Source: Paenibacillus sp. FSL H7-0737 (lineage in GTDB: Bacteria > Bacillota > Bacilli > Paenibacillales > Paenibacillaceae). From it: 64,000 nucleotides of DNA. The DNA is taken from positions 4,960,001 to 5,024,000 of the forward strand of contig NZ_CP009279.1 of assembly GCF_000758545.1 (NCBI RefSeq), given 5' to 3'. A program made the translations under genes and the position numbers. The notes below the pieces were generated by a model that worked only from the letters and a program-made list of their open reading frames with translations, did not search any database and was not told the origin of the DNA. Shown piece after piece: positions 10,156-46,548 of this stretch (position 1 is the first letter of the stretch; each line of letters begins with the position of its first letter).

Positions 10156-10196
10156 TATATATCAGCTCCTGTAGTCATTGATTATCCAAGTATATA

Positions 10197-10232
10197 AAAA
10201 CGCTACTGACAGCGTTATGTCAGTAGCGTTTT
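10197..10232 (-). terminator. Terminator overlapping the end of the WYL regulator
   Basis: Perfect 14-base inverted repeat AAAACGCTACTGAC / GTCAGTAGCGTTTT with an eight-base loop. The stem includes the last codons and the TGA stop of the regulator gene. A-rich and T-rich flanks allow action on both strands. Confidence 0.8.
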
Positions 10233-11167: not shown

Positions 11168-11299
11168 ACGGCTCTCCCTCCCCGATAAATTGTTTTAATA
11201 TCTCAAACGGCAATGTAAAAAACCTCTAAAAACTTCTATATCTATAAACCATTTTTATATTAGATATTATAAACATTAATTTTACTTATATCGCTCTAA

Positions 11300-11354
11300 A
11301 AGGGTATAGTAATATAGGGATTATAACCATTACTTATATAGAGAGTATACCCTT
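11300..11354. promoter_or_regulatory. Dyad-symmetry leader before the F420-ligase-like gene
   Basis: Nine-base arms AAGGGTATA (11300-11308) and TATACCCTT (11346-11354) enclose a second pair AGTAAT / ATTACT. A direct repeat TTACTTATAT occurs at 11282-11291 and 11330-11339. The second large arm ends just before the ribosome binding site (AGGAGA, 11360-11365). It could be an operator pair or a leader hairpin. A possible promoter (TTTACT, 18 bases, TATAGT at 11305) overlaps the left arm, which favours a DNA-level operator. Confidence 0.5.
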
Positions 11355-11372
11355 ATAAGAGGAGAGATCATA

Positions 11373-12563: not shown

Positions 12564-12572
12564 GATGAGTAC

Positions 12573-12609
12573 AAAAAGGGAGTCTCCTCTACGAGACTTC
12601 CCTTTTTTT
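12573..12609 (+). terminator. Terminator of the F420-ligase-like gene
   Basis: AAAAAGGGAGTCTC and GAGACTTCCCTTTTT form a stem of about ten pairs with one bulged base and a short loop, followed by a run of seven T. The A-run on the other side suggests it could act in both directions. Confidence 0.88.
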
Positions 12610-12647
12610 ACTTTGCGGTGCCCTCTTTCATATCAAGGCATTGATAG

Positions 12648-12786
12648 ATTAGGGAATTCCTCCCTGAAATTCGACTGATTTGACGGTAAATCTTGATTTC
12701 ACTCTGTTTTTTAGGGAGGAATTCCCTGATTGCATTCATTTAAAGCAATTATCGGCTTTTATTAGGGAGCTTTTCCCTAATTACTC
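12648..12786. repeat. Dispersed triple-palindrome element, copy 2
   Basis: Palindromes at 12651-12665 (AGGGAATTCCTCCCT, identical to the first unit of copy 1), 12713-12727 (AGGGAGGAATTCCCT, its exact reverse complement) and 12764-12778 (AGGGAGCTTTTCCCT). Start-to-start distances are 62 and 51 bases, exactly as in copy 1 at 6-145. Both copies end with a near-identical AATTACTC. It fills most of the 357-base gap between two convergent genes, together with two hairpins. No coding potential is seen. Confidence 0.72.
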
Positions 12787-12848
12787 ACAATCCACTGGTA
12801 TAGTGACAGCACGCCAAGTAAATCCATGTACCCACTCTATATCAAAAT

Positions 12849-12892
12849 ACACCTTTAACCGTACGGATGAACATCCGAATGGTTAAAGGTGT
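12849..12892. terminator. Strong inverted repeat, probable terminator of the MetE-C-like gene
   Basis: Twelve-base arms ACACCTTTAACC / GGTTAAAGGTGT with an inner CGGATG / CATCCG stem, beginning 28 bases after the minus-strand gene ends. The T-run is short on either side, so termination strength is uncertain. Confidence 0.6.
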
Positions 12893-12920
12893 ATTGTCTC
12901 TGTCTACTTTTTAATTAGAG

Positions 12921-14060
12921 TTAATTCCAGATCTCTTCAGCAATCTCTTTAATATAAGCAAGCTTGCGCCATTGCTGCTCTTCTGTAAGGTGGTTACCTT
13001 CTTCAGTGGAAGCAAAGCCACATTGCGGGCTCAGGCAAATCCGGTTTAGATCGACATATTGCTTCGCTTCCTCAATACGCTTCAGAATATCTTCCTTGCT
13101 TTCAAGCTCACCAAATTTGGAAGAGAACAGGCCAAGCACGACCTGCTGATTGTCTTTTAGGAAGCGTAATGGTTTGAAGTCACCAGCACGTTCAGTATCA
13201 AACTCCAGATAGTAACCTGAGTAGTTATTGATGTTCAGAAGTGTTTGCGCGATAGGTTCATAACCTCCGCCTACTCCAGCATAAGTAGAAACATAATTGC
13301 CTCGGCATACATGTGTCGTTACAACGAGATCTTCCGGCAGTCCGGATACCACTTCTTCGTTCAACTTCGCAAGCTCGTTCGCATATTCAGCTACATTCAC
13401 ACCAACCTGATTCATAAATGCTATAAACTGTTCGTCGCACAGCGCTCCCCACGTGCAATCGTCGATTTGAATGCTGCGGCAGCCCGCTGCATAAAAGGCA
13501 AGAATTGACGCTTTGTATGCTTTGGCAATATCCGAAATTAGCTCTTCACGATTCGGGTATAATTCATTCGTGCTTTCCTTATTTTCTACCCGATCCAGCT
13601 CAAACAGGAATTGCGCTGCTGCAGGAATCGATTGGCGCGCAACAACATCCTCACCAGCAGCGCCTTTTAAGAATTCATAATGCGCTACAAAAGGGTGGCT
13701 GCTGTAGCTTATTTTTCCGGTCAGTCGTGCGGTTTCTGGTCTGGATTCTGCACCATTAAATTGGTAGCCTTGATCAATAATGGTCCGCTCTACACCATCA
13801 AAACCCCAGAAGAAGTCGAGATGCCACCAAGAGCGGCGGAATTCGCCGTCGGTTACAGCTTGAAGACCAACCTCTTTTTGTTTTTGCACGAGCTTCACAA
13901 TCTCGTCGTTCTCTACTTCCTTCAACTGCTCGGCAGTAATTTCGCTGTTTTTGAATTTCAATCTAGCCTCTTTCAACGCCTGAGGGCGCAGGAAGCTGCC
14001 AACAATATCATATCGAAATGGAGTAACGGTTCGCTTTTTAGGTTCGGTTTGAGTGCTCAT
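12921..14060 (-). CDS. MetE C-terminal-like methyltransferase (YxjG/YxjH family)
   Basis: A 379-residue cobalamin-independent methionine synthase-like protein that corresponds to the catalytic half of MetE only. Zinc-ligand segments are visible as TTHVCRGN (His and Cys) and LSPQCGFAST (Cys near the C-terminus). The substrate entry part DIVGSFLRPQALKEARLKF is standard for the family. It probably transfers a methyl group to homocysteine or a related thiol in sulfur metabolism; the methyl donor is unknown. Start ATG has GAGGAG upstream. No S-box or T-box leader fits the short upstream gap, but an inverted repeat at 14153-14170 may be an operator. Confidence 0.85.
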   Translation of the reverse strand: MSTQTEPKKRTVTPFRYDIVGSFLRPQALKEARLKFKNSEITAEQLKEVENDEIVKLVQKQKEVGLQAVTDGEFRRSWWHLDFFWGFDGVERTIIDQGYQFNGAESRPETARLTGKISYSSHPFVAHYEFLKGAAGEDVVARQSIPAAAQFLFELDRVENKESTNELYPNREELISDIAKAYKASILAFYAAGCRSIQIDDCTWGALCDEQFIAFMNQVGVNVAEYANELAKLNEEVVSGLPEDLVVTTHVCRGNYVSTYAGVGGGYEPIAQTLLNINNYSGYYLEFDTERAGDFKPLRFLKDNQQVVLGLFSSKFGELESKEDILKRIEEAKQYVDLNRICLSPQCGFASTEEGNHLTEEQQWRKLAYIKEIAEEIWN

Positions 14061-31624: not shown

Positions 31625-32638
31625 CTACCTCTCGTGCACAATAATCCCTTTAGAAACACGCAGTTTCGGATATTCGCCCATGATTTCCGGTATATCTTTT
31701 AGCGAAAACTGATGGCTAATCAACGACTCAATCTGAACGATCCCCTTCTCAATTAACGCAATCGATTCCTCATGTGTATATGGATTAATGAAAGAGCCCA
31801 TGATGTTCAACTCTTTTGTAAAAATTTCGAATGGTGAGACTTGAATCAACGTGTCCGGGGAAGCAACTCCAAACATTAAGACTTGTCCACCCTTACGCGA
31901 TGCCTTAACCGCCAGCTCCATGGAATCCGCCCGGCCTACACATTCGATCACAATATCAAATTGATGATGGAGAGCTTCCATCACACCTTCTGCTGCAGGA
32001 GATACGGCTTCATCCGCACCTAATTCGACTAATCGGTCATGCTTGAACACTTCAGGCTCACTGACAATGATCCCTTTAACACCCGCAGCCTTGACGAGCT
32101 GCAAGAACAATTGACCAATAAAACCACCGCCGATAATCAAGACTTGGTGTGTCGGACGGATATCCAGCTTCTTGTAACCATGCAGCACACAACCTAGAGG
32201 TTCAATCATTGCCCCTTCGATCCAGCTCATTTCATCAGGTAGCAAGTAACAGTTCGCTACAGGAACAACACAATACTCACCCATGCCACCGTCACGAGTC
32301 ACCCCAACAGCCTGCAAGTTATCGCACAAATGCACTTTTCCATTCCGGCAAAAATAACAGTTTCCACAATAGATGTTCGGATCAACCGATACACGGTCCC
32401 CCACTTGTAAGGTCGTAACCTCATCACCCACAGCCACTATTTCGCCCGCAAGCTCATGTCCTAACACAATCGGAGCTTTCACCTCCGCAGATCCAGGGTA
32501 TCCATGATAAATATGCTGATCCGTACCGCAGATCCCGCAGCATTTCACACGAAGTTTAACTTCTTTGGAGCCAATATCCGGAGCTTCCCAATCCATAAAT
32601 TCAATGTGCTTAGTTCCTTTAAATACAGCCGCCTTCAT
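31625..32638 (-). CDS. Zinc-dependent medium-chain alcohol/polyol dehydrogenase
   Basis: 337 residues. Catalytic zinc ligands lie in CGICGTDQHIYHG and GHELAGEIVAVGDEV, the structural zinc site in CGNCYFCRNGKVHLC (about 92-106), and the NAD-binding Rossmann loop in IIGGGFIGQLFLQL. Related to sorbitol/threonine dehydrogenases. It starts just after the GH2 gene stop with GGAGATGAG overlapping that gene, as the last gene of the mannoside operon. It probably oxidises a sugar or polyol released by the other enzymes; substrate not determined. Confidence 0.88.
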   Translation of the reverse strand: MKAAVFKGTKHIEFMDWEAPDIGSKEVKLRVKCCGICGTDQHIYHGYPGSAEVKAPIVLGHELAGEIVAVGDEVTTLQVGDRVSVDPNIYCGNCYFCRNGKVHLCDNLQAVGVTRDGGMGEYCVVPVANCYLLPDEMSWIEGAMIEPLGCVLHGYKKLDIRPTHQVLIIGGGFIGQLFLQLVKAAGVKGIIVSEPEVFKHDRLVELGADEAVSPAAEGVMEALHHQFDIVIECVGRADSMELAVKASRKGGQVLMFGVASPDTLIQVSPFEIFTKELNIMGSFINPYTHEESIALIEKGIVQIESLISHQFSLKDIPEIMGEYPKLRVSKGIIVHER

Positions 32639-32639
32639 C

Positions 32640-35225
32640 TTAGCTCATCTCCTTAATTCCTAGTTTTTGTAAACCCGCATCATTCATTGCCGTTACACGC
32701 AAGGTTTCCCAAGGCAGTGCCCCGGCATCCACATGATGCACACGAACCATCTTCTCCTCACCCGGAATCAGATCAAAGAAATTATCGTCCATGATCACCC
32801 AGGGTGCATCTAGTTCGATCATCACCATCCGCGCCACACGATCCGAGATCAAGCGGATATGTCCTTTCGCTTCATCCACAGAGATCTGAATATGGGCAGG
32901 TTGAAAATTCATGTCCTTATAGTCTCTTAAATAGAGTACGTAATCTTCTGTCGCCATCTTCTTCGAACGAAGTACAGCCACAACCTCGCGCGGGCTATGC
33001 TGTTGCAGTACCTCAGCTTCAGTTAACTTGGCAAAATTAACTTTACTATTCGCTTCAACGGTCACATCGAATGCACGCTGATATACAATTGTACCATCCA
33101 TCCGATAAATCGTTAATTCCGCCTCATCCTGATAAACTTCGCGGCGATCATTGATAGCCCATAGCTGCAGCGGTCCATTCGGATCATGATCCACACATAA
33201 GAGTACTGGTGCAAAGAATTTACGCGCATAGTGGTAGCTCGCCTTTGGTAAACCATAGTAGTCGATGACAGACCAGCTCGTTCCCGGCCAGCAATCATTG
33301 AACTGCCAGAATAAAGCCCCGCTTGTATCCGGCTTATTACGGCGGTAATGCTCAATGCCATACCTCAATCCCTCTGCCTGGGTCAGCATCGAGAATTGAA
33401 TATATTCATAGATATCCTTCGGAATTCCTGTATAACCTTCCATGAGCATAATGCCCTTTGGATAATGGACATCTTTATTACGGTACTTCATTTCATCGCT
33501 ATCCCAATAGAACTGATTGTCCGGCATATTCTTCGCTAGGGTGTAACGATTGGAAGCGGCATGCAGCCCGAATTCACTGGCGAATTTCGTGAAATCTGAC
33601 TTGAATCGTTTGAACGATATCCCTTCAACACTATAATCCTGTGTCTGCGGTTCACCAAACTGACGTGGCTCATTATTCCCATGCCAGACTTGCCAGTTAT
33701 GGGTATCGCCCACCTCACGTGAATTGTGATCATTGCCGCCAAAAGGCGAGCTAGGCCAAAACGTTCGTGTGGGATCGAGTTGCTCTAGTACTGCAGGCAT
33801 GAGCTCATGATAAATTTTTTCTCCATAAAAGGGATGTGTGATCTCGCCGTTAGAGGACAGTGCCTCATACAACCAATCATTCTCGTTATTCCCACACCAT
33901 AGAGCAAGGCTCGTACGACTGCGAAGACGTTTTACGACCTGCTCAATTTCGCGGTGAACATTATTCATGAAATTACGATTGTAATCTGGATACAGTGCAC
34001 AAGCGAACATGAAGTCCTGCCAGATTAAAATTCCTAACCGATCACATTCGTCAAAGAAAATATCCCGCTCATAAATGCCTCCACCCCAAGCACGAATCAT
34101 ATTCATATTGGCATCCTTGGCCATCTGAAGCAGATGTGCATAGCGGCTATCTGGCACGGTCGCAATAAAGCTATCAATAGGGATCCAATTAGCACCTTTA
34201 GCAAAAACTTTTACGCCGTTCAATACAAAAGTGAAAGCATGGCGCCCTTCTTCATCCAGCTGCATCAATTCGATCTTTCGAATCCCAAATGACTGCTCAT
34301 AGGTATCTATTAGCTCCCCATCAGCAAATAACGTAACGCGTAGATGATATAAGAAAGGCGTTCCTAGATCATGGGTCCACCATAACTTTGGATCCATCAC
34401 CTGCAAGGTAACTGAATGATGAAGCGTACGCGCTGTAATTGCCCCGTCAACTGCAATCCCTGAAGCTCTGTCCAAAGCGACATTCGCTTCCGCAACGCGC
34501 TCCGTCCCGTCTAATAGTTCCACACGCGCCGTATACGAACATCCGCGATCAAAGGCATGTGCGCATAAATCCACATCAACAACACCTACTTGACCCTCTA
34601 TCGAAGTTGTACGGGCAAACACATGATCTAAATGTGCATGACGCCGTTTGATCAACTGTACCTCTTTCCAAATCCCTGCACAGACCAGACGTGGACCCCA
34701 GTCCCAGCCAAAATGACTCTGCGCTTTACGTGTCCAGATCCGCTTCTTGCTAAAGCCTGACCAATAATATTGGACCTTATCTCCTGCGTTCACATGAATA
34801 GGATCAAATTTTACGGCAAGCGTATTCTTCCCTTGATTTAATTCACGGGTTACATCAAATGAATGGCTAATGAACATATTATCTGTTGATCCAAGCTCCA
34901 CGCCGTTGAGATATACGGTTGCATAGGTATCTAACCCTTCGAATAATAGCTCCATCTTCTCACCAGGTTTAAGATCAGAATCGTATGAAAAGACCGTACG
35001 ATACCACCATACCTTTTCTTCAATCCAACGGCATTTCTGATCTTGGTGGCCAAAGAAAGGATCATCAATAATGCCTTTCTCCCGAAGCGTCGTATGGATG
35101 TCACCGGGCACTGAGGTGGTCATCCAGAAATAATCAATAAACTCTGGCGATGCAACTTCAAGATCCCGGGCTTCCCCCACATGAAAATCACGAAGTTTCC
35201 AGTTTTCAGTTAATTTAATGTTCAT
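32640..35225 (-). CDS. Beta-mannosidase (GH2)
   Basis: About 861 residues, cytoplasmic (no signal peptide), removing beta-mannose from the non-reducing end. Pattern: N-terminal sugar-binding domain with WKEVQLIKR, barrel entry RAWGGGIYERDIFFDECDRLGILIWQDFMFACALYP typical of beta-mannosidases, acid/base Glu in WCGNNEND (about 448) and nucleophile Glu in ASEFGLHA (about 551). I chose ATG 35225 (MNIKLTENW), nine bases after GAGAGG; ATG 35234 touches that site. It follows the GH130 gene after a hairpin and is followed by the dehydrogenase. Confidence 0.93.
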   Translation of the reverse strand: MNIKLTENWKLRDFHVGEARDLEVASPEFIDYFWMTTSVPGDIHTTLREKGIIDDPFFGHQDQKCRWIEEKVWWYRTVFSYDSDLKPGEKMELLFEGLDTYATVYLNGVELGSTDNMFISHSFDVTRELNQGKNTLAVKFDPIHVNAGDKVQYYWSGFSKKRIWTRKAQSHFGWDWGPRLVCAGIWKEVQLIKRRHAHLDHVFARTTSIEGQVGVVDVDLCAHAFDRGCSYTARVELLDGTERVAEANVALDRASGIAVDGAITARTLHHSVTLQVMDPKLWWTHDLGTPFLYHLRVTLFADGELIDTYEQSFGIRKIELMQLDEEGRHAFTFVLNGVKVFAKGANWIPIDSFIATVPDSRYAHLLQMAKDANMNMIRAWGGGIYERDIFFDECDRLGILIWQDFMFACALYPDYNRNFMNNVHREIEQVVKRLRSRTSLALWCGNNENDWLYEALSSNGEITHPFYGEKIYHELMPAVLEQLDPTRTFWPSSPFGGNDHNSREVGDTHNWQVWHGNNEPRQFGEPQTQDYSVEGISFKRFKSDFTKFASEFGLHAASNRYTLAKNMPDNQFYWDSDEMKYRNKDVHYPKGIMLMEGYTGIPKDIYEYIQFSMLTQAEGLRYGIEHYRRNKPDTSGALFWQFNDCWPGTSWSVIDYYGLPKASYHYARKFFAPVLLCVDHDPNGPLQLWAINDRREVYQDEAELTIYRMDGTIVYQRAFDVTVEANSKVNFAKLTEAEVLQQHSPREVVAVLRSKKMATEDYVLYLRDYKDMNFQPAHIQISVDEAKGHIRLISDRVARMVMIELDAPWVIMDDNFFDLIPGEEKMVRVHHVDAGALPWETLRVTAMNDAGLQKLGIKEMS

Positions 35226-35250
35226 TTTCTTCATCCTCTCTCCCAAATTA

Positions 35251-35282
35251 AAACGCCAAAACCACTTCGGTTTTGACGTTTT
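35251..35282 (-). terminator. Hairpin between GH130 and GH2 genes
   Basis: Interrupted stem AAACG.CAAAACC / GGTTTTG.CGTTT with a short loop, followed on the minus strand by GTTTTAATTT. It may be a partial terminator within the operon, or it may mark a second transcript. Confidence 0.6.
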
Positions 35283-35286
35283 ATTG

Positions 35287-36348
35287 TTATACGTATATCA
35301 AGCTATCTAAAATTTCTTGTACACTAAGTTCTGCGCAAGCCATTGATGTATCCGCGACTCCGTAATACATTTTAACAACATCGCCTTCCACGAGTGCACC
35401 GCAAGAGAATACAACATCGCCGAAGAATCCGTTCTTCTCATAATCCGCTTCCGGCTCCATGATAGGAGCATTGGAGCGCGCAATCACCTTCGAGGGGTCA
35501 TTTAGATCTAACAAAACTGCTCCCATGCAATAACGATGTTCCAGCGTGGCTCCATGATACAGCTCCAGCCAGCCTTTCTCGGTCTTGAATGGAACCGCAC
35601 CGCCGCCAATCCGGCCGCTATCCCACATCCCCTCACGCAAACCGATCAGATGCTTATGGTTACCCCAATATAATAAGTTGTCCGATTCTGCGATCCATAT
35701 TTCCGGATCTCCCGTACTTTTCGTTGTTGGACGGTGCAATGCATAATATTTGCCGTTAATTTTCTCTGGGAAAATCAATACGTCTTTATTATCCGGCCCA
35801 AAGATCATGCCGTGGTGAGTTACATTCACGAAATCTTTAGTTGATACCAGCGATTCTCCAACGCCCACAGGGGAGACTGCCGAGAAATAAATATAGTAGG
35901 TATCCCCAATTTGGGTTACCCGAGGATCTTCTACCCCGAAGGTCTCCAGTGAATTGGAAGGGTACACAAATGGCTTCTCATCCACCGTAAAATGATGTCC
36001 ATCCTTACTTCGAGCGATTCGGATATAAGATAATGAAGTCAAGTACTGAAATGTAGCACTAGCGGATTTATTCTTAATCACACGCGGATCAGAGAAGTCG
36101 AAGCGCTCATCATCTGTATTCAGATCCAAAATATCCAATTCATTGGTCTCCGGATTATAAATCGGAGCTTTCACAATTTTTGGATCCTTGCTAATTGGGC
36201 GTTCTGCTACACGGAGAAACATTAATATTTCACCATTATAGCTAGCAATACCGGCATTAAATGCACCAATCACTTCAAAGTCATCGTGATACGGCTTAAC
36301 GTCCGCCGGTGTAATAAGTGGATTTTGTTCATAACGATAGATTTTCAT
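35287..36348 (-). CDS. GH130-family mannoside phosphorylase/hydrolase
   Basis: 353-residue five-bladed propeller enzyme. The N-terminus NPLITPADVKPY, FNAGIASYNGEILMFLRVAERP, EDPRVTQIGDTYYIYFSA and the C-terminal VFSCGALVEGDVVKMYYGVADT are the usual GH130 landmarks. Members act on beta-mannosides, most by inverting phosphorolysis to mannose 1-phosphate. Linkage specificity (beta-1,2 or beta-1,4) is not clear from sequence alone. It lies between DUF1861 and the GH2 beta-mannosidase. Confidence 0.9.
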   Translation of the reverse strand: MKIYRYEQNPLITPADVKPYHDDFEVIGAFNAGIASYNGEILMFLRVAERPISKDPKIVKAPIYNPETNELDILDLNTDDERFDFSDPRVIKNKSASATFQYLTSLSYIRIARSKDGHHFTVDEKPFVYPSNSLETFGVEDPRVTQIGDTYYIYFSAVSPVGVGESLVSTKDFVNVTHHGMIFGPDNKDVLIFPEKINGKYYALHRPTTKSTGDPEIWIAESDNLLYWGNHKHLIGLREGMWDSGRIGGGAVPFKTEKGWLELYHGATLEHRYCMGAVLLDLNDPSKVIARSNAPIMEPEADYEKNGFFGDVVFSCGALVEGDVVKMYYGVADTSMACAELSVQEILDSLIYV

Positions 36349-36384
36349 GTTGTAATAACTCCCTTAACCAAATGGATTTCATAC

Positions 36385-37329
36385 TTATAAAATTTCAAAT
36401 TGAGCAAAAGGATCAGGGATTGTTGCTCGTTGTGCTTCCGCATCGCTGATTCCTGCATATATATTAGCTGTACCGTCCTCATGACGTACGAGCCCGCCGC
36501 TGAACACAACATCCTCCAAATCAGGACGTTTGGCAACGCCTGGCAAGAACTGATTGCGTACAGCGATTAATTGAATATCCGAGTACTCACCTGTTGCCGG
36601 ATCGATAGCGAATACCATCGGGTAATAGTGACGATCGCCCGAATCATCAAAAGATGCGATATGCCCAAGAACACCGAGCAGTCCGTTCTTTAGCAAGTGT
36701 GCTTCATTCGCACCGCCCCACTCTTCATCAACAAACTGTCCATCCAATAACGGTGTTTCTTCGATCAATGGAATGGATAACGCTTCTAACGATGCAATGC
36801 GGGTAAAGCCGATTTTACCGCGTCCTCCTTTATCTCCTTGAGGGCGGGTCAGTACTCCGATGCTATCTTTCAGATCCACTAGGCGCAGATCTTTCATGCC
36901 ATCCGGTCCTTTAAAGAAGGGTTCTAAGCTCGCGATGTTCTTCCCGCGGTAGAATACTGTACGCCACATTAAGGCATCAGCCTTTACCGGATGCGGATAA
37001 ATTTGAACGCCTCCAACTATCAATTCGCCATTAATTTTCGTGAAAAAAGGATCTTGAAGTTCAAGGGTAGGCGCTCCTTCACGGGGTACCCATTGTCCAT
37101 CACGTTCGACAAAAAAAACGACATCGGAATGCTCGCTGTCACGGGATTCAACCCGACCCGCAATCACCCACTCACCCTCATCTTGGAATGGAGCTGTAAT
37201 ATTGTAGACATCTTTATGATCTACACCTGTGAATGTTAATTTCTGTATATTGGTTACGGATACGTCTTTCATCGCGTATTCCATGAGCAGTTGTTCACAT
37301 GTCTTCACAGCATTCTTGAGCAGTTTCAT
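36385..37329 (-). CDS. DUF1861-family protein (predicted mannoside-active propeller)
   Basis: 314 residues. The opening VTNIQKLTFTGVDHKDVYNITAPF, then IAGRVESRDSEHSDVVFF, DPFFTKINGELIVGGVQIY and the C-terminal VFSGGLVRHEDGTANIYAGISDAEA fit DUF1861. The blade repeats and the closing FSGGLV..IYAGISDA parallel the FSCGALV..MYYGVADT ending of the adjacent GH130. I recall, without being able to check, that DUF1861 proteins are allied to Leishmania mannosyltransferase/phosphorylases (GT108). A mannoside phosphorylase or transferase is therefore likely, but not proven. Confidence 0.78.
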   Translation of the reverse strand: MKLLKNAVKTCEQLLMEYAMKDVSVTNIQKLTFTGVDHKDVYNITAPFQDEGEWVIAGRVESRDSEHSDVVFFVERDGQWVPREGAPTLELQDPFFTKINGELIVGGVQIYPHPVKADALMWRTVFYRGKNIASLEPFFKGPDGMKDLRLVDLKDSIGVLTRPQGDKGGRGKIGFTRIASLEALSIPLIEETPLLDGQFVDEEWGGANEAHLLKNGLLGVLGHIASFDDSGDRHYYPMVFAIDPATGEYSDIQLIAVRNQFLPGVAKRPDLEDVVFSGGLVRHEDGTANIYAGISDAEAQRATIPDPFAQFEIL

Positions 37330-37346
37330 AATAATAAAATTCCTCT

Positions 37347-39002
37347 CTAGTCAAATAATAGCGGCGCACGCATCCATATTGCGGCTTCATTCGGCAACAG
37401 AGTTACCAAGTCTGTACCGCTCACTATGTCTCGGCGGCTTGATAATATATTAGTTGCTTGCCCATCCAGCAGCTCACTAGGATCAATCTGTATGCTCTGA
37501 TTATCGTAATTCAAGGCTACGAGCGCTCTGGTATTGGTTTCTTTCAATGTTCTTACATATAAAATAAGATTGCCTCTGCGTTCCAGCACGTCATAATCCC
37601 CGAATTGAAATACATCCTGTGTATTGCGCAAGTGGAGAAGCTTTTTATAATAATGTAATAATGAATTCGGTTGATTGCATTCGGACTCCACGTTTAATTG
37701 CTGATAATTTGGGCCCATGCCAATCCATGGTGTTCCTGACGTAAACCCGCCATGTGGACTTGCGTTCCATTGCATTGGTGAGCGAGACGCATCTCTTCCC
37801 TTTGCATTCGCAATTTTCAGGGCTTCCGCCCGGGTTATCCCCCGCTGTAGTGCGATTTCATATGCCTTCAATCCTTGGATGTCCCGCATATCTTCCAGCT
37901 TATGGGCTACGAAATTCCGCATCCCAATCTCCTCACCGAAATATAGGAAAGGTACCCCTTTTGCGGTCAAGGCCAGCGTTGCCATAAGGCGGGCCCGTTC
38001 TTCCTCAATCTCCGCGTCCCCTTCGCCAAAACGCGAAATCACGCGATCCATATCATGACTGCCGAAGAATAACGTTGGAATCTGATCCTCACGGTGTACC
38101 TGCTCCATCATCTTAAGCTCGGCGAACAAATTCTCTGGACTAAATTCCTTCTGGCTTCCCAGATTAAAGTTAAAGACCACATCAAACTTACCCGTTCCGC
38201 TGTAACGCTTCAGCATATCCATATCTTCAGAGCCGACTTCACCTACCATGAACATTCCGCTATGCGCATGAACAAACCTGCTAATCTCCTCGATGGCATC
38301 CATAATTCCATCTTGATTCTGATCATGTACATGCTTCTGCTCACCCGTTACTTCATCCATCGGGTTATCCGGGAATTGATCGGACACCGATAAGAAGTTG
38401 ATAACATCTAACCGGAAGCCACTTACGCCTTTGCCCAGCCAATAAGCCATAACATCCTTCATCGCTTCTTTAACTTCGGGATTCGCCCAGTTCAAATCGA
38501 CCTGTTCTTTCGCAAACCCATGATAGTAATACTGTTCTGTTGCAGCATCCCATTCCCACGCGGTTCCACCAAAAAACGATTCCCAGTTATTAGGTACGCC
38601 GCCGTTCACCGCGTCCTTCCAAATGTACCAATCCCGCTTCGGGTTCGTCCTTGAGGATCGGGATTCCTTGAACCATGCATGCTCTGAAGACGTATGATTC
38701 AGGACAAGATCGGCAATCACTCTGATCCCTCGAGCCCTCGCTTCCTGAATAAACCGTTCAAAATCTTCCATCGTTCCAAAGTCTGGATCAATCTGACAAT
38801 AATCTGCAATGTCATACCCGTTATCTACTTTTGGAGACTTATAGAACGGCGTTAGCCAAATCCCTCCGATGCCAAGTTCCCGCAAATAATCCAGCTTGGA
38901 AGTAAGACCGCCGAAATCACCAATCCCATCCCCGTTACTATCACAGAAGCTTGGCATATACACTTCATAGAAAACCGTCCCTTTCCACCACGGCTGTTCC
39001 AA
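37347..39002 (-). CDS. GH13 alpha-glucosidase
   Basis: 551-residue cytoplasmic enzyme of the oligo-1,6-glucosidase / alpha-glucosidase type. A calcium-site DSNGDGIGDF is at 21-30, nucleophile D199 in GFRLDVINF, acid/base E255 in FMVGEVGSED and transition-state D317 in FGSHDMDR. The start is TTG, seven bases after AGGAGGGG. In the mannoside operon it would remove alpha-glucose from the imported oligosaccharide, hinting at a mixed alpha-glucosyl/beta-mannosyl substrate. Confidence 0.92.
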   Translation of the reverse strand: MEQPWWKGTVFYEVYMPSFCDSNGDGIGDFGGLTSKLDYLRELGIGGIWLTPFYKSPKVDNGYDIADYCQIDPDFGTMEDFERFIQEARARGIRVIADLVLNHTSSEHAWFKESRSSRTNPKRDWYIWKDAVNGGVPNNWESFFGGTAWEWDAATEQYYYHGFAKEQVDLNWANPEVKEAMKDVMAYWLGKGVSGFRLDVINFLSVSDQFPDNPMDEVTGEQKHVHDQNQDGIMDAIEEISRFVHAHSGMFMVGEVGSEDMDMLKRYSGTGKFDVVFNFNLGSQKEFSPENLFAELKMMEQVHREDQIPTLFFGSHDMDRVISRFGEGDAEIEEERARLMATLALTAKGVPFLYFGEEIGMRNFVAHKLEDMRDIQGLKAYEIALQRGITRAEALKIANAKGRDASRSPMQWNASPHGGFTSGTPWIGMGPNYQQLNVESECNQPNSLLHYYKKLLHLRNTQDVFQFGDYDVLERRGNLILYVRTLKETNTRALVALNYDNQSIQIDPSELLDGQATNILSSRRDIVSGTDLVTLLPNEAAIWMRAPLLFD

Positions 39003-39025
39003 CCGATAACCCCTCCTGTGCAGAC

Positions 39026-39865
39026 CTATTTCAAGTTAAATTGCATGCCTTCCTGGAACTTCTTGCCGAAAATAATGAACAAAATAATGATTGGCAAGGT
39101 AAGCATCACTGCACCGGCATACATCGGACCCGGATACGATTGATACGGACCGAACATCTGAGATAATAAAACGTTCAATGTTAACATGCCGTCACTTCGG
39201 ACGACGATCATATCCCATAGGAGCTCTGTCCAGCGTTCCATTAGCAGGAATAGGAATACAACGGTCGTAATGGACTTCGACATCGGCATCATAATCTTAT
39301 ACAGGATTTTGAAATCGGAGGCCCCATCCAGCTTGGCGGCTTCTATGAAAGCGTCGGGTACCGCCTTAAAGAAGTTGGTGTACATGAAGATCCCCCATAA
39401 ACTCATCGCCTTGGGAATAATGAGCGCCCAATACGTATCGAACAGTCCTACTTTTTGAATAATCAAAAAGTTAGGGATGATCAGAATGATTGCCGGAAAG
39501 AACATATGAAACAACACAAAGTTGTTGATAGAGTCTCTTCCGCGGAATTTCAGCTTCGCCAACGCATAAGCGACCATAATCGCGAACATCATCATTAAGG
39601 CTGTAGATACCAGGGAAACGAACACACTGTTAAAGAAGGCATGAATCCATGGTCTTGTAATCCCGGTCTCACCACCTGTAAAGAGCCATTGATACGAGCG
39701 CAGCGTAAATTGCGTCGGTATCAGCTTCCGGTCTACCTGTGACCAATCTGCAAGTGAGTTCAATACCATATATAAATAGGGGAATACCATAATCACGAGC
39801 AGTACGATCGCAATCAGATAGCGGATCGACAGCCGGAGCTTGATGTTTGAATTAGACCCAACCAT
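39026..39865 (-). CDS. Sugar ABC transporter permease, MalG type
   Basis: 279 residues, six hydrophobic segments. The EAA loop reads EAAKLDGASDFKILYKIMMP, and the C-terminal tail ends KKFQEGMQFNLK, typical of MalG. It overlaps the MalF-type gene by 14 bases and is followed 23 bases later by the GH13 gene. Confidence 0.9.
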   Translation of the reverse strand: MVGSNSNIKLRLSIRYLIAIVLLVIMVFPYLYMVLNSLADWSQVDRKLIPTQFTLRSYQWLFTGGETGITRPWIHAFFNSVFVSLVSTALMMMFAIMVAYALAKLKFRGRDSINNFVLFHMFFPAIILIIPNFLIIQKVGLFDTYWALIIPKAMSLWGIFMYTNFFKAVPDAFIEAAKLDGASDFKILYKIMMPMSKSITTVVFLFLLMERWTELLWDMIVVRSDGMLTLNVLLSQMFGPYQSYPGPMYAGAVMLTLPIIILFIIFGKKFQEGMQFNLK

Positions 39866-40733
39866 TGCGCTTACCCCACATTTCCAGAATTTTTCGGATT
39901 ACGAATATAGATATAAATGTCGCAACCGCAGCCATAATCGCGATAGCTGATGCGTAACCTGCCTGCAGGTTCTTAAATGCTTGACTGTATATTTCCATTT
40001 GCCATGTATTCGTTGCATAGTTCGGTCCGCCGCCTGTTAATTGGTAGACCTCAGTAAAGATACCGAATGTTGCACCAAAGGATAAAATTAAGGTTGTATA
40101 AATCGCAGGGTAAAGCAAAGGCAACGTAATTCTCCAGAACCTTTGGCTGTCCTTCACGCCATCAATTGCCGCTGCTTCATATACTTCCTGATCAATGCTC
40201 TCTAAACCTGAAGTAAGAATTAACGCATAGTAACCTGTAAATTTCCAAGCCATAATCATCGCAACGACGAACAATGCCGAGAAAGATCCGCCGAGCCAGT
40301 CAATATCAAGACCTAACCGATCCCTTAGAAACGTCTGAACAGGACTTGTATGTGACAAAAAACCTTTAACAATAAGGGATGCAACAACCCCTGAGGATAG
40401 GTAAGGCAAGAAGAATCCAATAAGAAATACGGTTTTTAATTTAGGTAAGCCTTTTACAATTACCGCTACAAAAAGCGACATGGCTGTGACAATCGGTACA
40501 AATACGATCATAAATTTGTACGTTACCCAAAATGCCGATCTTACCCCTGGTGTGCCTAATGCTTTGGTAAAATTCTTGAATCCTACAAAATCATAAGTCG
40601 GTGAAATCAAGTCCCAGTTAGTAAAAGACAAATATAGAGACCAAATAAGCGGGCCCAAGAAAAACACAGTCGAAAAAATAAGGTAAGGGCTGGCAAAAAG
40701 CCAGCCTAACCGATTATTATTTTTTTCAATCAT
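39852..40733 (-). CDS. Sugar ABC transporter permease, MalF type
   Basis: 293 residues with six hydrophobic segments. EAA loop: YEAAAIDGVKDSQRFWRITLP; the TGGGPNYATNTW segment is typical of family members. It begins at the stop codon of the binding protein gene, so translation is coupled. No ATPase is encoded in the operon. Confidence 0.9.
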   Translation of the reverse strand: MIEKNNNRLGWLFASPYLIFSTVFFLGPLIWSLYLSFTNWDLISPTYDFVGFKNFTKALGTPGVRSAFWVTYKFMIVFVPIVTAMSLFVAVIVKGLPKLKTVFLIGFFLPYLSSGVVASLIVKGFLSHTSPVQTFLRDRLGLDIDWLGGSFSALFVVAMIMAWKFTGYYALILTSGLESIDQEVYEAAAIDGVKDSQRFWRITLPLLYPAIYTTLILSFGATFGIFTEVYQLTGGGPNYATNTWQMEIYSQAFKNLQAGYASAIAIMAAVATFISIFVIRKILEMWGKRNGWV

Positions 40734-42046
40734 TATTGAAGTTCCCCTTCAATCGCCTTCTTCATATTGTCCCAACCCGTTTTTGGATCAATCTCACCAC
40801 GAACGATTTTGTTAAAGGCCTCTTGACCAATAAAGGTTTGCAATTCGTTGAATTTCGGATTGTCCATGGATGGAACAGCATTCGGGATTGCTTTTGCATA
40901 CTCTTGCAATACAGGCGTTTTTTCAAATACTGGTTTAAACACTTCATTTGTACCTACATCATCACGTGCTGGAGGCAAGTTTGTTTCTTGGAAAAAGGCA
41001 ACATCGTTTTTGTCATCCGAATATACCCACTTGATGAATTCTATTGCAGCAGCTTGTTGCTCTGGACTTGCCGATGCATAGATAACAATTCCTTTAGCAT
41101 CCGCAAATGTTTTTGCATTCGCTGGATCCATACCGTCAGGAACAGGAGGCAATGTTACTTCAAAGTTCTCCTTGTACTGTAGCTCTGGATATTTCTCAGC
41201 CCATGTGCTGAATGTCCAAGGTCCTACATCCGTAAATACGCCCACTCCATTTTCAAAAGGTTCTGTTACATTCTGAGACAACAGCCCTTTCTCCTTACGA
41301 AGATTGTCCACGAAAGTAAGAACGTCTACACCAGCTTTTTCATCGCCAACAAATTGGCTGCCTTCAATGAATTTGTTGCCATCTGAAGCTGCATTGTACA
41401 GCATAAAGAAGTCGAACCATCTTTTCCAAGAGGTAGGGTCTGCTAAGTCAGGTTTCGCCCAAAGATATTTATCCGGGTATTTTGCTTTTAATTTTTTCGT
41501 TGCCTCAATCACTTCACTGTATGTTCTTGGAACTTCGTTCACACCAGCTTCTCTCAAAATATCCGTTCTCCATCCGAACAACATTGCATTGGAGTAGATT
41601 GGAAGAACATATTGATGGCCATCGGCAAATTCCCAAGGCTCAATCGTTTTGGTCATATTACGTTTTGTCACAATATCATTGAAGCCAGCAATCGTATCCA
41701 ATGGAACTAACGCTTTACTGTTTGCAAGTTGTGCTGCAAAACCACGGCTAATGTTCTCAGTCATCGTCGGAGCGCTTCCACCCGCGATTGCGGCTTGAAT
41801 ACTTGCCTCAGAAGTAGGGGACTCCTTGATCGCACTTACGTTAATTTTCACCTTAGGGTTAACAGTCTCATATTCTTTGGCGATTTTCTGCCAATATGCT
41901 TGTTGAGTCGGGTTAGGTGCAGCCCAGAACTCAATAGTTGTTACTCCATCTGCTGAAGTGCCTGAATTACTGCTCTTTGATCCACAACCGGCAATAATCG
42001 TGAATACAAGCGTAAGTGCAAGCATTACTGAAAGCTTCTTCTTCAT
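40733..42046 (-). CDS. Extracellular sugar-binding lipoprotein (mannoside locus)
   Basis: About 437 residues from ATG 42046 (MKKKLSVML), with GGAGGG nearby; the longer frame upstream is not needed. Lipobox IAGC (Cys about residue 20) is followed by a Ser-rich linker and EFWAAPNPTQQAYWQKIAKEYE. It is first in the operon with two permeases, GH13, DUF1861, GH130, GH2 and dehydrogenase. Promoter, cre-like site and LacI-type operator lie upstream (42109-42204). Confidence 0.92.
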   Translation of the reverse strand: MKKKLSVMLALTLVFTIIAGCGSKSSNSGTSADGVTTIEFWAAPNPTQQAYWQKIAKEYETVNPKVKINVSAIKESPTSEASIQAAIAGGSAPTMTENISRGFAAQLANSKALVPLDTIAGFNDIVTKRNMTKTIEPWEFADGHQYVLPIYSNAMLFGWRTDILREAGVNEVPRTYSEVIEATKKLKAKYPDKYLWAKPDLADPTSWKRWFDFFMLYNAASDGNKFIEGSQFVGDEKAGVDVLTFVDNLRKEKGLLSQNVTEPFENGVGVFTDVGPWTFSTWAEKYPELQYKENFEVTLPPVPDGMDPANAKTFADAKGIVIYASASPEQQAAAIEFIKWVYSDDKNDVAFFQETNLPPARDDVGTNEVFKPVFEKTPVLQEYAKAIPNAVPSMDNPKFNELQTFIGQEAFNKIVRGEIDPKTGWDNMKKAIEGELQ

Positions 42047-42108
42047 AAAATAAACCCTCCCTGAGTATCGATGCACATCAGTGCAGCATTTTGTAATTCC
42101 TAGATATA

Positions 42109-42128
42109 ATTTTGTAACGTTACAAAAT
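42109..42128. promoter_or_regulatory. Perfect LacI-type operator
   Basis: ATTTTGTAACGTTACAAAAT is a perfect 20-base palindrome with a CG centre, as LacI-family proteins prefer. It lies about 63 bases upstream of the lipoprotein start and downstream of the predicted promoter. The divergent LacI gene is the likely user. Confidence 0.8.
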
Positions 42129-42154: not shown

Positions 42155-42170
42155 TTTGTAAGCGTTACAA
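42155..42170. promoter_or_regulatory. Second operator, also a cre-like site
   Basis: TTTGTAAGCGTTACAA has TTGTAA / TTACAA arms like the other operator, but its core TGTAAGCGTTACA also fits the CcpA cre consensus. It lies just downstream of the -10 box, so either repressor would block the lipoprotein promoter. Half-site relatives (TTTGTAATGTTA near 42274 and ACATTACAAA near 42243) occur toward the LacI gene. Confidence 0.7.
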
Positions 42171-42176
42171 TTGCTA

Positions 42177-42204
42177 TTATTATAGTTTTTAGCGAAAATG
42201 TCAA
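42177..42204 (-). promoter_or_regulatory. Predicted promoter of the mannoside operon
   Basis: Consensus TTGACA (42199-42204) and TAATAA (42177-42182) on the minus strand, 16 bases apart. Together with the two operators and half-sites this accounts for the 345-base gap 42047-42391. I did not find a convincing promoter for the LacI gene. Confidence 0.6.
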
Positions 42205-42391: not shown

Positions 42392-43402
42392 ATGAAGGTG
42401 AAGGTAACAATGCAAGATATCGCCGATCGATTGAATATATCGAAGAACTCTGTTTCTCAGGCTCTGTCCGGTAAAGACGGTGTGAGTGAGGAAACGAGAC
42501 AGTTAATTATCGATACTGCGAATGAAATGGGTTACACCTATTCGCGAGGGCGCAAAAGCACAGAAGAAGAAGCTGGAACCTTTGTCATTTTGGCATCAGA
42601 ATTTGCATTTTCCAAACGTAACTTTTTTGGAGAAATTTATTTGAGTATTGAGAAGGAAGCAGCGAAGCGAAATAAGCGTATGGTTATTCAATCTATTGAT
42701 CATCACGCTTCCGAACAATTGATTCTGCCTCCTATATTATTTGATCCTTCCGTAGAAGGAATCTTGATTCTGTCCCATATTACGACCCCATATATTCAAG
42801 CAGTGACGGGCACAGGGATTCCCACCGTATTAATTGATCACCATCACCCTGATCTTAAGGCCGATAGTATTCTCACCAATAATCGTTATGCCGCTTATAC
42901 AGCGGTGCAGTATTTAATTGAATTGGGACATACCCGTATTGGCTTTATCGGCAATATTCAATTCTCACCAAGCTATTACGAGCGTTTAGAAGGTTATCGC
43001 CTGGCTCTATACCAATCTGCCATTGAATACAACCCAAAATGGGTGTTCGATCGTGCCATTGAAGAAATGGATGATGTGTTCAACGCTGTACAAAAGTTGG
43101 ATAAGCAGCCTACGGCTTGGTTCTGTGTCAATGACGGCTTTGGGTTCTTGATCAATTCCGTGATGTACAAGCTTGGGTATCAGATCCCCCAAGATGTATC
43201 TATTGTGAGCTTTGATAATGGACAGTTATCGCGGATAACAACTCCTTTGACTACAACGATGGATGTAGATTTGTCTTACTTTGGACGAAAAGCTATAGAA
43301 CAACTCTTCTGGCGCATTGATCATCCCGAGGAGCCTTTTATAGAAGTTCTCCTTCCTACCCATCTGATCATTCGGGAATCCACACAACATCCAAATACAT
43401 AA
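42392..43402 (+). CDS. LacI-family transcriptional repressor
   Basis: 336 residues. The helix-turn-helix and hinge are MQDIADRLNISKNSVSQAL and GKDGVSEETRQLIIDTANEMGYTY (about 7-48). The effector domain has SILTNNRYAAYTAVQYLIELGHTRIGFIG and FDNGQLSRITTPLTTTMDVD, as expected. It is divergent from the mannoside operon and should repress it through the palindromes at 42109-42170, released by an unknown sugar or sugar phosphate. Confidence 0.93.
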   Translation: MKVKVTMQDIADRLNISKNSVSQALSGKDGVSEETRQLIIDTANEMGYTYSRGRKSTEEEAGTFVILASEFAFSKRNFFGEIYLSIEKEAAKRNKRMVIQSIDHHASEQLILPPILFDPSVEGILILSHITTPYIQAVTGTGIPTVLIDHHHPDLKADSILTNNRYAAYTAVQYLIELGHTRIGFIGNIQFSPSYYERLEGYRLALYQSAIEYNPKWVFDRAIEEMDDVFNAVQKLDKQPTAWFCVNDGFGFLINSVMYKLGYQIPQDVSIVSFDNGQLSRITTPLTTTMDVDLSYFGRKAIEQLFWRIDHPEEPFIEVLLPTHLIIRESTQHPNT

Positions 43403-43577: not shown

Positions 43578-44693
43578 CTACCAATATCCTCGGATTCCGG
43601 TCTGCATGCGGATCAGCGCTTCCAAATAATAATAGTCTCCCCAAATCATATGGCCATCAGGCACACGTCCACCTCTGACATGATAGGAACCATGCTTTAG
43701 AAGCCCCTCCGCCTCCGGATTTCCGGATGTCGCATAATGTTCCGCTAAGGATTTCATGCTGCGGAGTAAGGCTGCTTCATAAATAGCACGATCCGGGTCA
43801 TCTGCGTCCAGAAGATCCAGCAGCTCCAAAAGACCGGAAGCCGCAATGGCTGAAGCCGAGCTGTCGCGAGGGGTACTCGCTTCCACCGGCACATCAAAAT
43901 CCCAATACGCCACATTATCCTCTGGAAGATGGCTGATAAAGTAATGAGCCAGACTTTTAGAAGTATTAAGAAAGTCTTCCTCTCGTGTATAACGATAAGC
44001 CAGGGCAAATCCGTATATTCCCCACGCTTGACCACGTGTCCAGGTCGATCCATCCTCATAGCCTTGATGTGTTCCTCCACGAATTGCACTTCCTGTAGCT
44101 GGATCAAAGTAAAAAGTATGATAAGAGGAAGCATCCCCACGCACAAGAAATTTCCGGCTCTTTAACGCATGTTCGAGTGCTATATCATAATAGCGATTGT
44201 CCCCCGTTTCCTCCGCAGCCCAGAACAGCAGAGGCAAATTCATCAAACAGTCAATAATGATACGTCCCGCATTCTCGGGGTCACTCTCTAAACCCCAGGC
44301 CTGGAGGATTCCAGCGTTTTCACGCCAGCGCTTGCATAGTGTATCCGCAGCCTGTAGACCGACAGCTCGGGCTTCTTCGCTGCCTGTTATTTTCCACTCT
44401 GCTACTGCAGTCAGTGAGTACAAAAAGCCAATATCATGATGGTCCAGGGCGATGTGATGATCCAGACGATGCTTAAAGTCTCCTAACCAAGAAGCTGCCG
44501 CCTCCTTATAGAATGAATCTTTGCTATATTCATAAGCAAGCCACATCATGCCAACATAGAACCCCTCTATCCAATCATCATTGTCTCCCCATTCGTATTG
44601 TTGCCCCTCAGCGATATGAGGCAGTTTGCCCGGATGGCCCGCGATATTACTCTCGATCTTGCGAATAGCATCCTCAATTGCCGTTGTCCACAT
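43578..44693 (-). CDS. Unsaturated glucuronyl hydrolase (GH88)
   Basis: 371 residues, cytoplasmic, hydrolysing the 4,5-unsaturated uronic acid left by polysaccharide lyases. DHHDIGFLYSL contains D87 and IIIDCLMNLPLLFWA contains D148, which line up with the two catalytic Asp of the Bacillus enzyme. GYEDGSTWTRGQAWGIYGFALAYR is the GH88-type substrate segment and distinguishes it from GH105. I use ATG 44693 (MWTTAIED); the longer frame extends into DUF2264. The start overlaps the end of the DUF2264 gene by about 20 bases. Confidence 0.9.
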   Translation of the reverse strand: MWTTAIEDAIRKIESNIAGHPGKLPHIAEGQQYEWGDNDDWIEGFYVGMMWLAYEYSKDSFYKEAAASWLGDFKHRLDHHIALDHHDIGFLYSLTAVAEWKITGSEEARAVGLQAADTLCKRWRENAGILQAWGLESDPENAGRIIIDCLMNLPLLFWAAEETGDNRYYDIALEHALKSRKFLVRGDASSYHTFYFDPATGSAIRGGTHQGYEDGSTWTRGQAWGIYGFALAYRYTREEDFLNTSKSLAHYFISHLPEDNVAYWDFDVPVEASTPRDSSASAIAASGLLELLDLLDADDPDRAIYEAALLRSMKSLAEHYATSGNPEAEGLLKHGSYHVRGGRVPDGHMIWGDYYYLEALIRMQTGIRGYW

Positions 44694-46548
44694 CTTTGTC
44701 TCTCCTTTCCGATAAATCAACCGTATGAAGTACTGCTTGGTTACGAGGATCGTAGATAACAATCCTTCCTTCCGACTGCCGCTGAATAATCGGCGGTGAT
44801 GACAGACTCTCCTGGTTCTCTGGGATATTCGTAGCTCCGAAGACTGCAGATATTAATACATGATCTCCCGGCTCCAATCTGGAGATCAAGCTCGGAAGAA
44901 ACGTCCGAGGCTTCAGCAGATTAGTATTCGGTTCGGGTAGCACGCATTCTCCCCGGTCAAAACCGCTTAGCATATGTATGGCACTGATTCCCCAAGGCAA
45001 TTGCACCGAGACAGCAGTGTTAGATACATGAATGGTTTCCCGATCACTGCGTGAGAAGCCAGCAGACTGGCCAATGGCAAATCCACCCTCCGCTACGTCT
45101 AGACACCGGGCGCTGTGAATGCTGTGAATGCGGACATGCCACAGACCCGCTGGAATAATCCATGTCTTCACATGTACATCGCTCCAGGGATGCCAGCGTG
45201 AATATACATAATTCTCTCCAATTTCCCACATCTCGCAGAATCTGCGTACCCGGTAATGTTCATCGCATTCACACAATGCTAATGTAGAGTCGTAAGCGCC
45301 TTGAACTAAGCCATAACCCGCCTTCGGCACACTGAATCCGAACAGCGTGGAGTAAGCAAACTTGGAATATTTAGCTGCGCTATGGGCCATATCAAAGTTA
45401 GCCATCTGACCAGAGGTATAGGCAATAACATGCTTATTTCCTTCTGGACGACTCACCAGCATACGCGCCTCTTGAAGCGGCAGTTGATCTTTCAATACAG
45501 GCAGTGGTTCTTCTTCCGCTTGCCAAAAAGGATGATCGTCCGGCAAGGCAAGAATAAGCATAGCTTTAAAGGCCCAATACGGTGATCCAGGGGCATTGTA
45601 GTTCTCCGTCATTACCAGATTCGGGTACGCATATCCGATACTTAGTAATCCGTCTATTCCCATAATAGGCTTCTCAAACCACCAACGAAAATGACGCATT
45701 ATAATTCCTTTGAGAACGCCATATGAAAAAGGAAGGACCTCGGCATACACCAGCGCACTCCAGAAAGAGACCTGCGCAAAACGATAGGTCAGACTACGTC
45801 CGAAAGGAATCGCACTTCCGTCCTCAGCAAACCAATACATAAAATCTTTGGCAAATTGTGCGGATCTTTCCCGGTAAACTGCAGCCCTCTGAGGATCATC
45901 ATCCGCCATCAATTTAGCATATATCAGCGTATAATAATGCATAGCAAAAGCAATATAATAGTCTCTCTGATCGGTCAGCCCATCGGAATACCAGCCATCA
46001 CTCAAGTAGTAGGTATCTATCTTCTCCAAATAATGATTCATTATCTCTTGATCGTAGGGCAATCCGACTTTCTTAAAGCCCACATTCACAAGAACCGTGA
46101 ACATCAGCCAGTTATTCGGGTTCGAACGATCCACATGATTGATCTGGTTCAACCAGTTATATACCTGCATTTTCTGAACATCACTCAGCGGCTCCCACAG
46201 CTTATGCGGCGCAAGAGCAAGCCCCAGTCCCAGCACAGCCTGTTCCACCATACGCTGGTCTTTGGTTGAGAATTCACCCCAGTATTCTTCATGTTCAGGG
46301 TCAGTCCCATTGACGATCCCCTCGAGGAACTTCGGCCAAAGCGCACTCTCCCCTCCCCCGCTGGCATGGGGAACAAGCCCCCATAACGGACGAGCGAAGG
46401 CTTCCATAAGCGCGGTAGCTTCATTGTATATTGATCCTGTAGCTCCCATATCGATTCCTGCACATCCAGAAGTAAATCGACTCTCCAGCGGAGCATATAG
46501 GTCATTTAAGAACATTTGTAATTCATTTTTAGTACCCTTCAGTTCCAC
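44674..46548 (-). CDS. DUF2264-family protein
   Basis: 624 residues, cytoplasmic. The N-terminal alpha/alpha-barrel-like part has LMEAFARPLWGLVPHASGGG and NNWLMFTVLVNVGFKKVGLP, and the C-terminal third is beta-rich. The family is commonly next to GH88/GH105 genes in sugar-degradation loci but has no established activity. GTG start behind GGAGGAA. It lies between the YesN-type regulator and GH88 and overlaps GH88, so it probably helps process the same uronic-acid oligosaccharide. Confidence 0.85.
   Translation of the reverse strand: MELKGTKNELQMFLNDLYAPLESRFTSGCAGIDMGATGSIYNEATALMEAFARPLWGLVPHASGGGESALWPKFLEGIVNGTDPEHEEYWGEFSTKDQRMVEQAVLGLGLALAPHKLWEPLSDVQKMQVYNWLNQINHVDRSNPNNWLMFTVLVNVGFKKVGLPYDQEIMNHYLEKIDTYYLSDGWYSDGLTDQRDYYIAFAMHYYTLIYAKLMADDDPQRAAVYRERSAQFAKDFMYWFAEDGSAIPFGRSLTYRFAQVSFWSALVYAEVLPFSYGVLKGIIMRHFRWWFEKPIMGIDGLLSIGYAYPNLVMTENYNAPGSPYWAFKAMLILALPDDHPFWQAEEEPLPVLKDQLPLQEARMLVSRPEGNKHVIAYTSGQMANFDMAHSAAKYSKFAYSTLFGFSVPKAGYGLVQGAYDSTLALCECDEHYRVRRFCEMWEIGENYVYSRWHPWSDVHVKTWIIPAGLWHVRIHSIHSARCLDVAEGGFAIGQSAGFSRSDRETIHVSNTAVSVQLPWGISAIHMLSGFDRGECVLPEPNTNLLKPRTFLPSLISRLEPGDHVLISAVFGATNIPENQESLSSPPIIQRQSEGRIVIYDPRNQAVLHTVDLSERRDKDVDNGN

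Follow-up and report, generated by a model that had tools for sequence, protein, structure and literature searches.

A sugar-import operon pairs a DUF1861 gene with a GH130 gene

Positions 36385–37329 of the window (the whole 64,000-nucleotide stretch of Paenibacillus sp. FSL H7-0737 analysed here) hold an intact open reading frame for a 314-aa DUF1861 protein on the minus strand; the initial annotation had placed the protein there and given no strand. It is the fifth of eight minus-strand genes that form an operon at 31625–42076, with −14 to +40 bp between neighbouring genes. In gene order, these encode an extracellular solute-binding protein (40733–42076; the true start is probably the internal ATG of MKKKLSVML), two ABC sugar permeases (39852–40733 and 39026–39865), a GH13 alpha-glucosidase/oligo-1,6-glucosidase-like protein (551 aa; 37347–39002), the DUF1861 protein, a GH130 protein (353 aa; 35287–36348), a GH2 beta-mannosidase (868 aa; 32640–35246; best PDB match the beta-mannosidase 5n6u, E 5e-156) and a zinc-dependent medium-chain dehydrogenase (337 aa; 31625–32638). 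The shared operon with a GH130, a GH2 beta-mannosidase and an importer that had been proposed earlier thus holds, with all eight genes on one strand and the importer comprising the solute-binding protein and both permeases.

The GH130 protein scored 675 bits against NCBIfam NF050092 (cut-off 550) and 552 bits, at 66% identity, against Lin0857, the beta-1,2-mannobiose phosphorylase of Listeria innocua (PDB 5b0p), and is predicted to be a beta-1,2-mannobiose phosphorylase of Lin0857 type. Given this type, the substrate class of the operon is likely to be beta-1,2-mannosides and not plant beta-1,4-mannan. The genome carries three more GH130 genes, at 1.755, 1.764 and 1.928 Mb of contig C1 (L005, L002 and L003), with 28–35% identity to that of the operon.

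A LacI-family regulator gene (42392–43402, plus strand) is divergent from the operon. Between the two lies a perfect palindrome, TTGTAACGTTACAA (42112–42125), which we propose as a LacI-type operator; it closely follows a promoter-like TTGACA-17-AATAAT that precedes the operon (42176–42204, minus strand) and was recognized by consensus match alone. Across 78 related bacterial loci, from which all context counts here are taken, sites with up to two mismatches to the palindrome were found between the LacI gene and the operon 117 times, in 67 loci, compared with 4 in shuffled sequences. The exact palindrome occurs once in the 6.77-Mb genome. A genome scan found one further site, with a single mismatch, and a reversed control pattern matched equally often, so we make no claim for a regulon wider than the operon. 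About 30 bp from the perfect operator, at 42155–42169, is another operator-like site, TTGTAAGCGTTACAA, whose half-sites are separated by one additional base. Past the LacI gene, at 43578–46548, are GH88 and DUF2264 genes, which are probably a separate neighbour because they accompany the operon solely in the closest relative (L047).

The DUF1861 protein is a GT108 family member with a GH130-like fold

The 314-aa protein matches Pfam DUF1861 (PF08950) over residues 24–309 with an E value of 6.4e-124 and a score of 413 bits against a cut-off of 28; the match covers positions 8–295 of the 296 in the profile, as for a full-length member. It gave no match to PF04041 (Glyco_hydro_130) at E ≤ 0.01, a profile that the neighbouring GH130 protein matches at 1e-60, and no NCBIfam match. 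In phmmer comparison with the PDB, matches were exclusively to Leishmania proteins, with MPT-4 first (7e-45), joined by an L. major homologue (2b4w), MPT-2 and MPT-1. The primary paper on GT108 is reportedly that of Sernee et al. 2019.

Structural comparison gave the same answer. An AlphaFold2 model of the protein (mean pLDDT 93.1, pTM 0.91) returned GT108 proteins as its best nine Foldseek matches, with GH130 phosphorylases next. In VIA-align it superposed on MPT-4 with Z 40.4 (2.0 Å over 296 residues; TM 0.87 and Z 40.4 for PDB 6q50) and on MPT-2 with Z 40.3, followed by Lin0857 (Z 25.9, 267 residues) and other GH130 proteins (Z 21–26, the phosphorylases at 24–26), with GH159, GH62 and GH43 at Z of about 19 and lower. 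The Leishmania MPT proteins belong to CAZy family GT108. They are dual-function enzymes, mannosyltransferase and phosphorylase, of mannogen, a beta-1,2-mannan reserve that the parasite both makes and degrades with them, and their fold is a GH130-like five-bladed propeller (review PMC8950772). MPT/MTP-1, -2 and -4 (PDB 6q4w, 6q4x and 6q50) share their Pfam family and this propeller with the 314-aa protein (Z 39–40). Kinship of DUF1861 to the Leishmania GT108 enzymes, which the initial annotation had put forward, is agreed on by the PDB matches, the structural matches and the review, and the product of 36385–37329 is confirmed as a GT108 (DUF1861) family member. A structure without a propeller active site had been named as the finding that would speak against the earlier reading; the model instead matches the propellers of GT108 and GH130 with high confidence and retains the catalytic Asp.

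The earlier reading had also drawn a parallel between the C-terminal segments of the two neighbouring proteins, FSGGLVRHEDGTANIYAGISDA (residues 276–297 of the DUF1861 protein) and FSCGALVEGDVVKMYYGVADT (residues 314–334 of the GH130 protein at 35287–36348). Profile–profile alignment with hhalign does pair these segments, placing D296 opposite D333, and also pairs D93 with D141 and R162-P163 with R206-P207. Its E value was 0.0027 and its probability just 11% with shallow profiles, so we used it for residue pairing alone and place the homology of GT108 and GH130 on structure (Lin0857, Z 25.9); together, the pairing and the superposition identify the segments as homologous. The DUF1861 protein therefore shares with Lin0857 and its relative next door a fold (Z 26), a catalytic Asp, an R-P motif and a C-terminal mannose-binding Asp, but at about 16% identity and from another CAZy and Pfam family.

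Active-site residues are conserved, and a few favour phosphorolysis

The key residues of the 314-aa protein are N43, R59, D93, R162-P163, W204-G-G, H223 and D296. D93 occupies the column of MPT-2 D94, in which a PDB chain described as ‘inactive variant D94N’ has N, and this catalytic Asp is invariant among 104 bacterial GT108 sequences, as are N43, R59, K146, D147, R149, R162, P163, W204-G-G, N208, G222, H223, K267 and D296. By sequence alignment, D141 and D333 of the neighbouring GH130 are Asp92 and Asp281 of Teth514_1788, which with Asn28 are the mannose-recognition residues of its subsite −1 (PMC4264767); N43 is likely to be the counterpart of that Asn28. The Leishmania GT108s likewise have this catalytic Asp and these subsite −1 residues. 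That a propeller fold by itself shows no function is a general point that might be raised for a non-enzymatic or regulatory protein, such as a sugar sensor; with the catalytic Asp and subsite −1 residues fully conserved in all 104 sequences, we give this next to no credence.

GH130 also contains enzymes that hydrolyse beta-1,2-mannosides (PDB 5a7v title), and the 314-aa protein might by likeness be a beta-mannoside hydrolase. This is very unlikely, as GH130 hydrolase matches (Z 21.5) rank below the phosphorylases and the R, H and K residues that we propose for phosphate binding are invariant.

Phosphorylases and transferases occur within this one family: MPT-4 is a phosphorylase, and MPT-1 and MPT-2 are GDP-Man transferases (review PMC8950772 and PDB titles). 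Over the 38 positions that set MPT-4 apart from MPT-1/2, the 314-aa protein agrees with each side at 7, and overall similarity was dropped as a discriminator. Given this tie, information is found only in strictly conserved columns: R162, G222, I173 and P193 favour a phosphorylase, while F95 and F261 count against. At positions 162 and 222, MPT-4 has the R and G of the 314-aa protein, where MPT-1 and MPT-2 have H and S, and R162 may be a phosphate-binding residue. The case for phosphorylase over transferase rests on a few strictly conserved positions. An enzyme like MPT-1 and MPT-2, using GDP-mannose or Man-1-P to make a beta-1,2-mannosyl intracellular reserve or cell-surface glycan, has in its favour this family membership and the company that some GT108 genes keep with ManC and GT4, but R162 and G222 agree with the phosphorylase, and the operon has an importer, GH2, GH13 and a LacI regulator and lacks ManC and GT4; we regard such a transferase as quite improbable.

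Bacterial GT108 proteins fall into two deep branches

In a maximum-likelihood tree, the 314-aa protein fell in a bacterial branch A (33 rows), which was split from a bacterial branch B together with the Leishmania enzymes with support of 100/100 and a branch length of 1.35. The Leishmania proteins have 50–57% identity to branch B and 34 to about 40% to branch A (32–35% to the 314-aa protein itself); an AU test (p 0.34) did not separate a position nested within branch B from one as its sister group. In a same-clade test with the characterised Leishmania GT108s, the 314-aa protein lies outside, which is a difference of subfamily and leaves family membership intact. Unlike the parasite enzymes, it is encoded in a catabolic operon of a bacterium, together with an importer and a GH130.

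Branch B proteins (for example, in L133, in L135 and at L092:8998-9957) share DUF1861 and the same invariant residues with branch A but have only 35–38% identity to the 314-aa protein, and are sometimes encoded beside GH38 alpha-mannosidases, next to or near them at L135:9261-12404 and L142:13988-17038, suggesting use of fungal-type mannan. Some loci carry both branches. At L092:8998-10933 and L136:8747-12154, branch-B and branch-A GT108 genes are side by side or with a dehydrogenase gene between, with LacI present and no GH130 nearby, as if the second GT108 had taken the place of the GH130. In L106 and L114 (about 9983–13041), a branch-A GT108, a branch-B GT108 and a GH130 lie in one operon, giving three phosphorylase-like propellers.

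We found no characterised bacterial GT108 in the literature searched, although paywalled or later work may hold one. As the Leishmania enzymes are on the other branch, no characterised enzyme in the sources searched represents branch A. Transfer of function carries a caveat, because every GT108 with a solved structure lies across the split from the 314-aa protein, and specificity may differ, because branch A is only 34–40% identical to any characterised GT108.

GT108 and GH130 genes are paired across related genomes

Lin0857-type GH130 genes are present in 73 of the 78 loci (absent from 5), and in 64 the GT108 gene is directly followed by the GH130 gene, with a median gap of 17 bp. The LacI gene recurs in 69 loci and an orthologous solute-binding protein in 60; GH13 is found in 34, GH2 in 30 and the dehydrogenase in 27. 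ManA is encoded in 16 loci and a phosphomannomutase-type gene in 9 (either or both in 21), forming a putative route from Man-1-P to glycolysis. Among 398 evenly drawn genomes of the class, 46 had the GH130 and 40 the GT108, the two occurring together in 30 (Fisher p 4e-25, uncorrected for phylogeny), and about half of the sampled genomes of the host’s family carry the DUF1861 gene. The L. innocua locus of Lin0857 itself was not among the sampled genomes; the nearest to it, L125 (70% to Lin0857), has a GT108 gene immediately before its Lin0857-like GH130 and a phosphomannomutase-type gene immediately after it. A small AAA-type kinase-like gene lies near the operon in 12 loci (L105:5136-5636 and 11 more). 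The catabolic beta-mannoside role suggested in the initial annotation is supported by gene context across the 78 loci. The two deep bacterial GT108 branches and the GT108–GH130 operon pairing are well supported and, in the literature searched, undescribed.

This context also bears on whether the protein acts on a different mannoside, by phosphorolysis of a mixed chain or cap such as beta-Man on Glc or an alpha-glucosylated or alpha-mannosylated core, from which GH13 would remove alpha-glucose. The GH13 gene in 34 loci, the deep split from the Leishmania enzymes and the branch-B genes adjoining GH38 alpha-mannosidases would fit such a substrate. We nevertheless consider it rather unlikely, given the strong pairing with a Lin0857-type beta-1,2-mannobiose phosphorylase, the known beta-1,2 specificity of GT108 (review PMC8950772) and the more than half of loci that are without GH13.

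GT108 replaces GH130 in a related cluster

In Thermoanaerobacter, a 1,2-beta-oligomannan phosphorylase and a mannobiose phosphorylase are tandem GH130s, clustered with genes for an importer, a GT4 and a Man-1-P guanylyltransferase (PMC4264767). Two sampled genomes repeat this cluster at least partly, L219 (with two GH130s) and L220; the GH130 of this cluster type is 96% identical to Teth514_1788 and has as neighbours a GT4 gene and an ‘ITDDTG’ gene without a Pfam match. In three Paenibacillaceae loci (L132, L138 and L117), the same two genes, GT4 and ITDDTG, accompanied by ManC or a nucleotidyltransferase, instead adjoin a GT108, and GH130 is absent. This swap of GT108 for GH130 gives independent, if circumstantial, support for equivalent function.

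Teth514_1788 and Teth514_1789 are a pair of phosphorylases that act on beta-1,2-mannosides and are served by a single ABC importer, the arrangement also predicted for the operon studied here; they are proposed to divide long chains and mannobiose between them (PMC4264767). The systems differ in that both Thermoanaerobacter enzymes are GH130s, whereas the Paenibacillus operon has one GT108 and one GH130, and in that the Man-1-P of Thermoanaerobacter is thought to feed GDP-mannose, whereas the Paenibacillus operon genes point to catabolism.

A proposed relay for beta-1,2-mannoside breakdown

Because the gene sits in a conserved sugar-import operon, its role is most likely in the breakdown of beta-1,2-linked mannose chains. 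On sequence, fold, conserved residues and gene context, we consider the branch-A protein at 36385–37329 to be probably an intracellular, exo-acting, inverting beta-1,2-oligomannoside phosphorylase of family GT108 that feeds mannobiose to the GH130. The analysis shows family membership, fold, residue conservation, the operon with its operator motif, and gene co-occurrence; we infer the activity of the protein, its linkage, its chain-length split with GH130, its phosphate-binding residues and its use of phosphate as opposed to GDP-Man. Beta-1,2-linked mannooligosaccharides would enter by the ABC importer of the operon, and the non-reducing-end mannose would be held in the propeller pocket of the GT108 (N43 and D296). 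D93 would then protonate the leaving oxygen while phosphate, on Arg and His side chains (R59, R162 and H223), attacks C1, giving alpha-mannose 1-phosphate and a chain shorter by one unit. The remaining beta-1,2-mannobiose would be phosphorolysed by the adjacent GH130 and residual beta-mannosides hydrolysed by GH2, with Man-1-P passing through phosphomannomutase and ManA into glycolysis. The suggested division of labour by chain length follows the analogy with Teth514_1788/1789.

Several points count against the proposed oligomannoside phosphorylase, among them the 34–40% identity to characterised GT108s, the even split at the 38 positions and the 5 loci that lack a GH130. Pure beta-1,2-mannan does not explain the GH13 gene, which with the dehydrogenase suggests a substrate with other residues; the adjacent GH130 could alone suffice for Man-1-P production; and no secreted depolymerase was identified. 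Tentatively, branch A could be an enzyme lineage of its own, apart from branch B, evolved for a relay with a GH130 mannobiose phosphorylase and with a specificity not yet described. Two distant propeller phosphorylases from different CAZy families would then split chain-length or linkage tasks within a single beta-1,2-mannoside operon found in Bacillales and relatives.

DUF1861 is still of ‘unknown function’ in Pfam, and the evidence here assigns to it a specific predicted activity. If true, this would identify the bacteria able to use beta-1,2-mannosides of the kind present in the mannans of yeast and Leishmania, and would provide a new phosphorylase for the synthesis of beta-1,2-mannosides. 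The question of where the mannogen enzymes of Leishmania came from would also gain a further, uncharacterised bacterial lineage in branch A, the genes of the parasite themselves resembling branch B.
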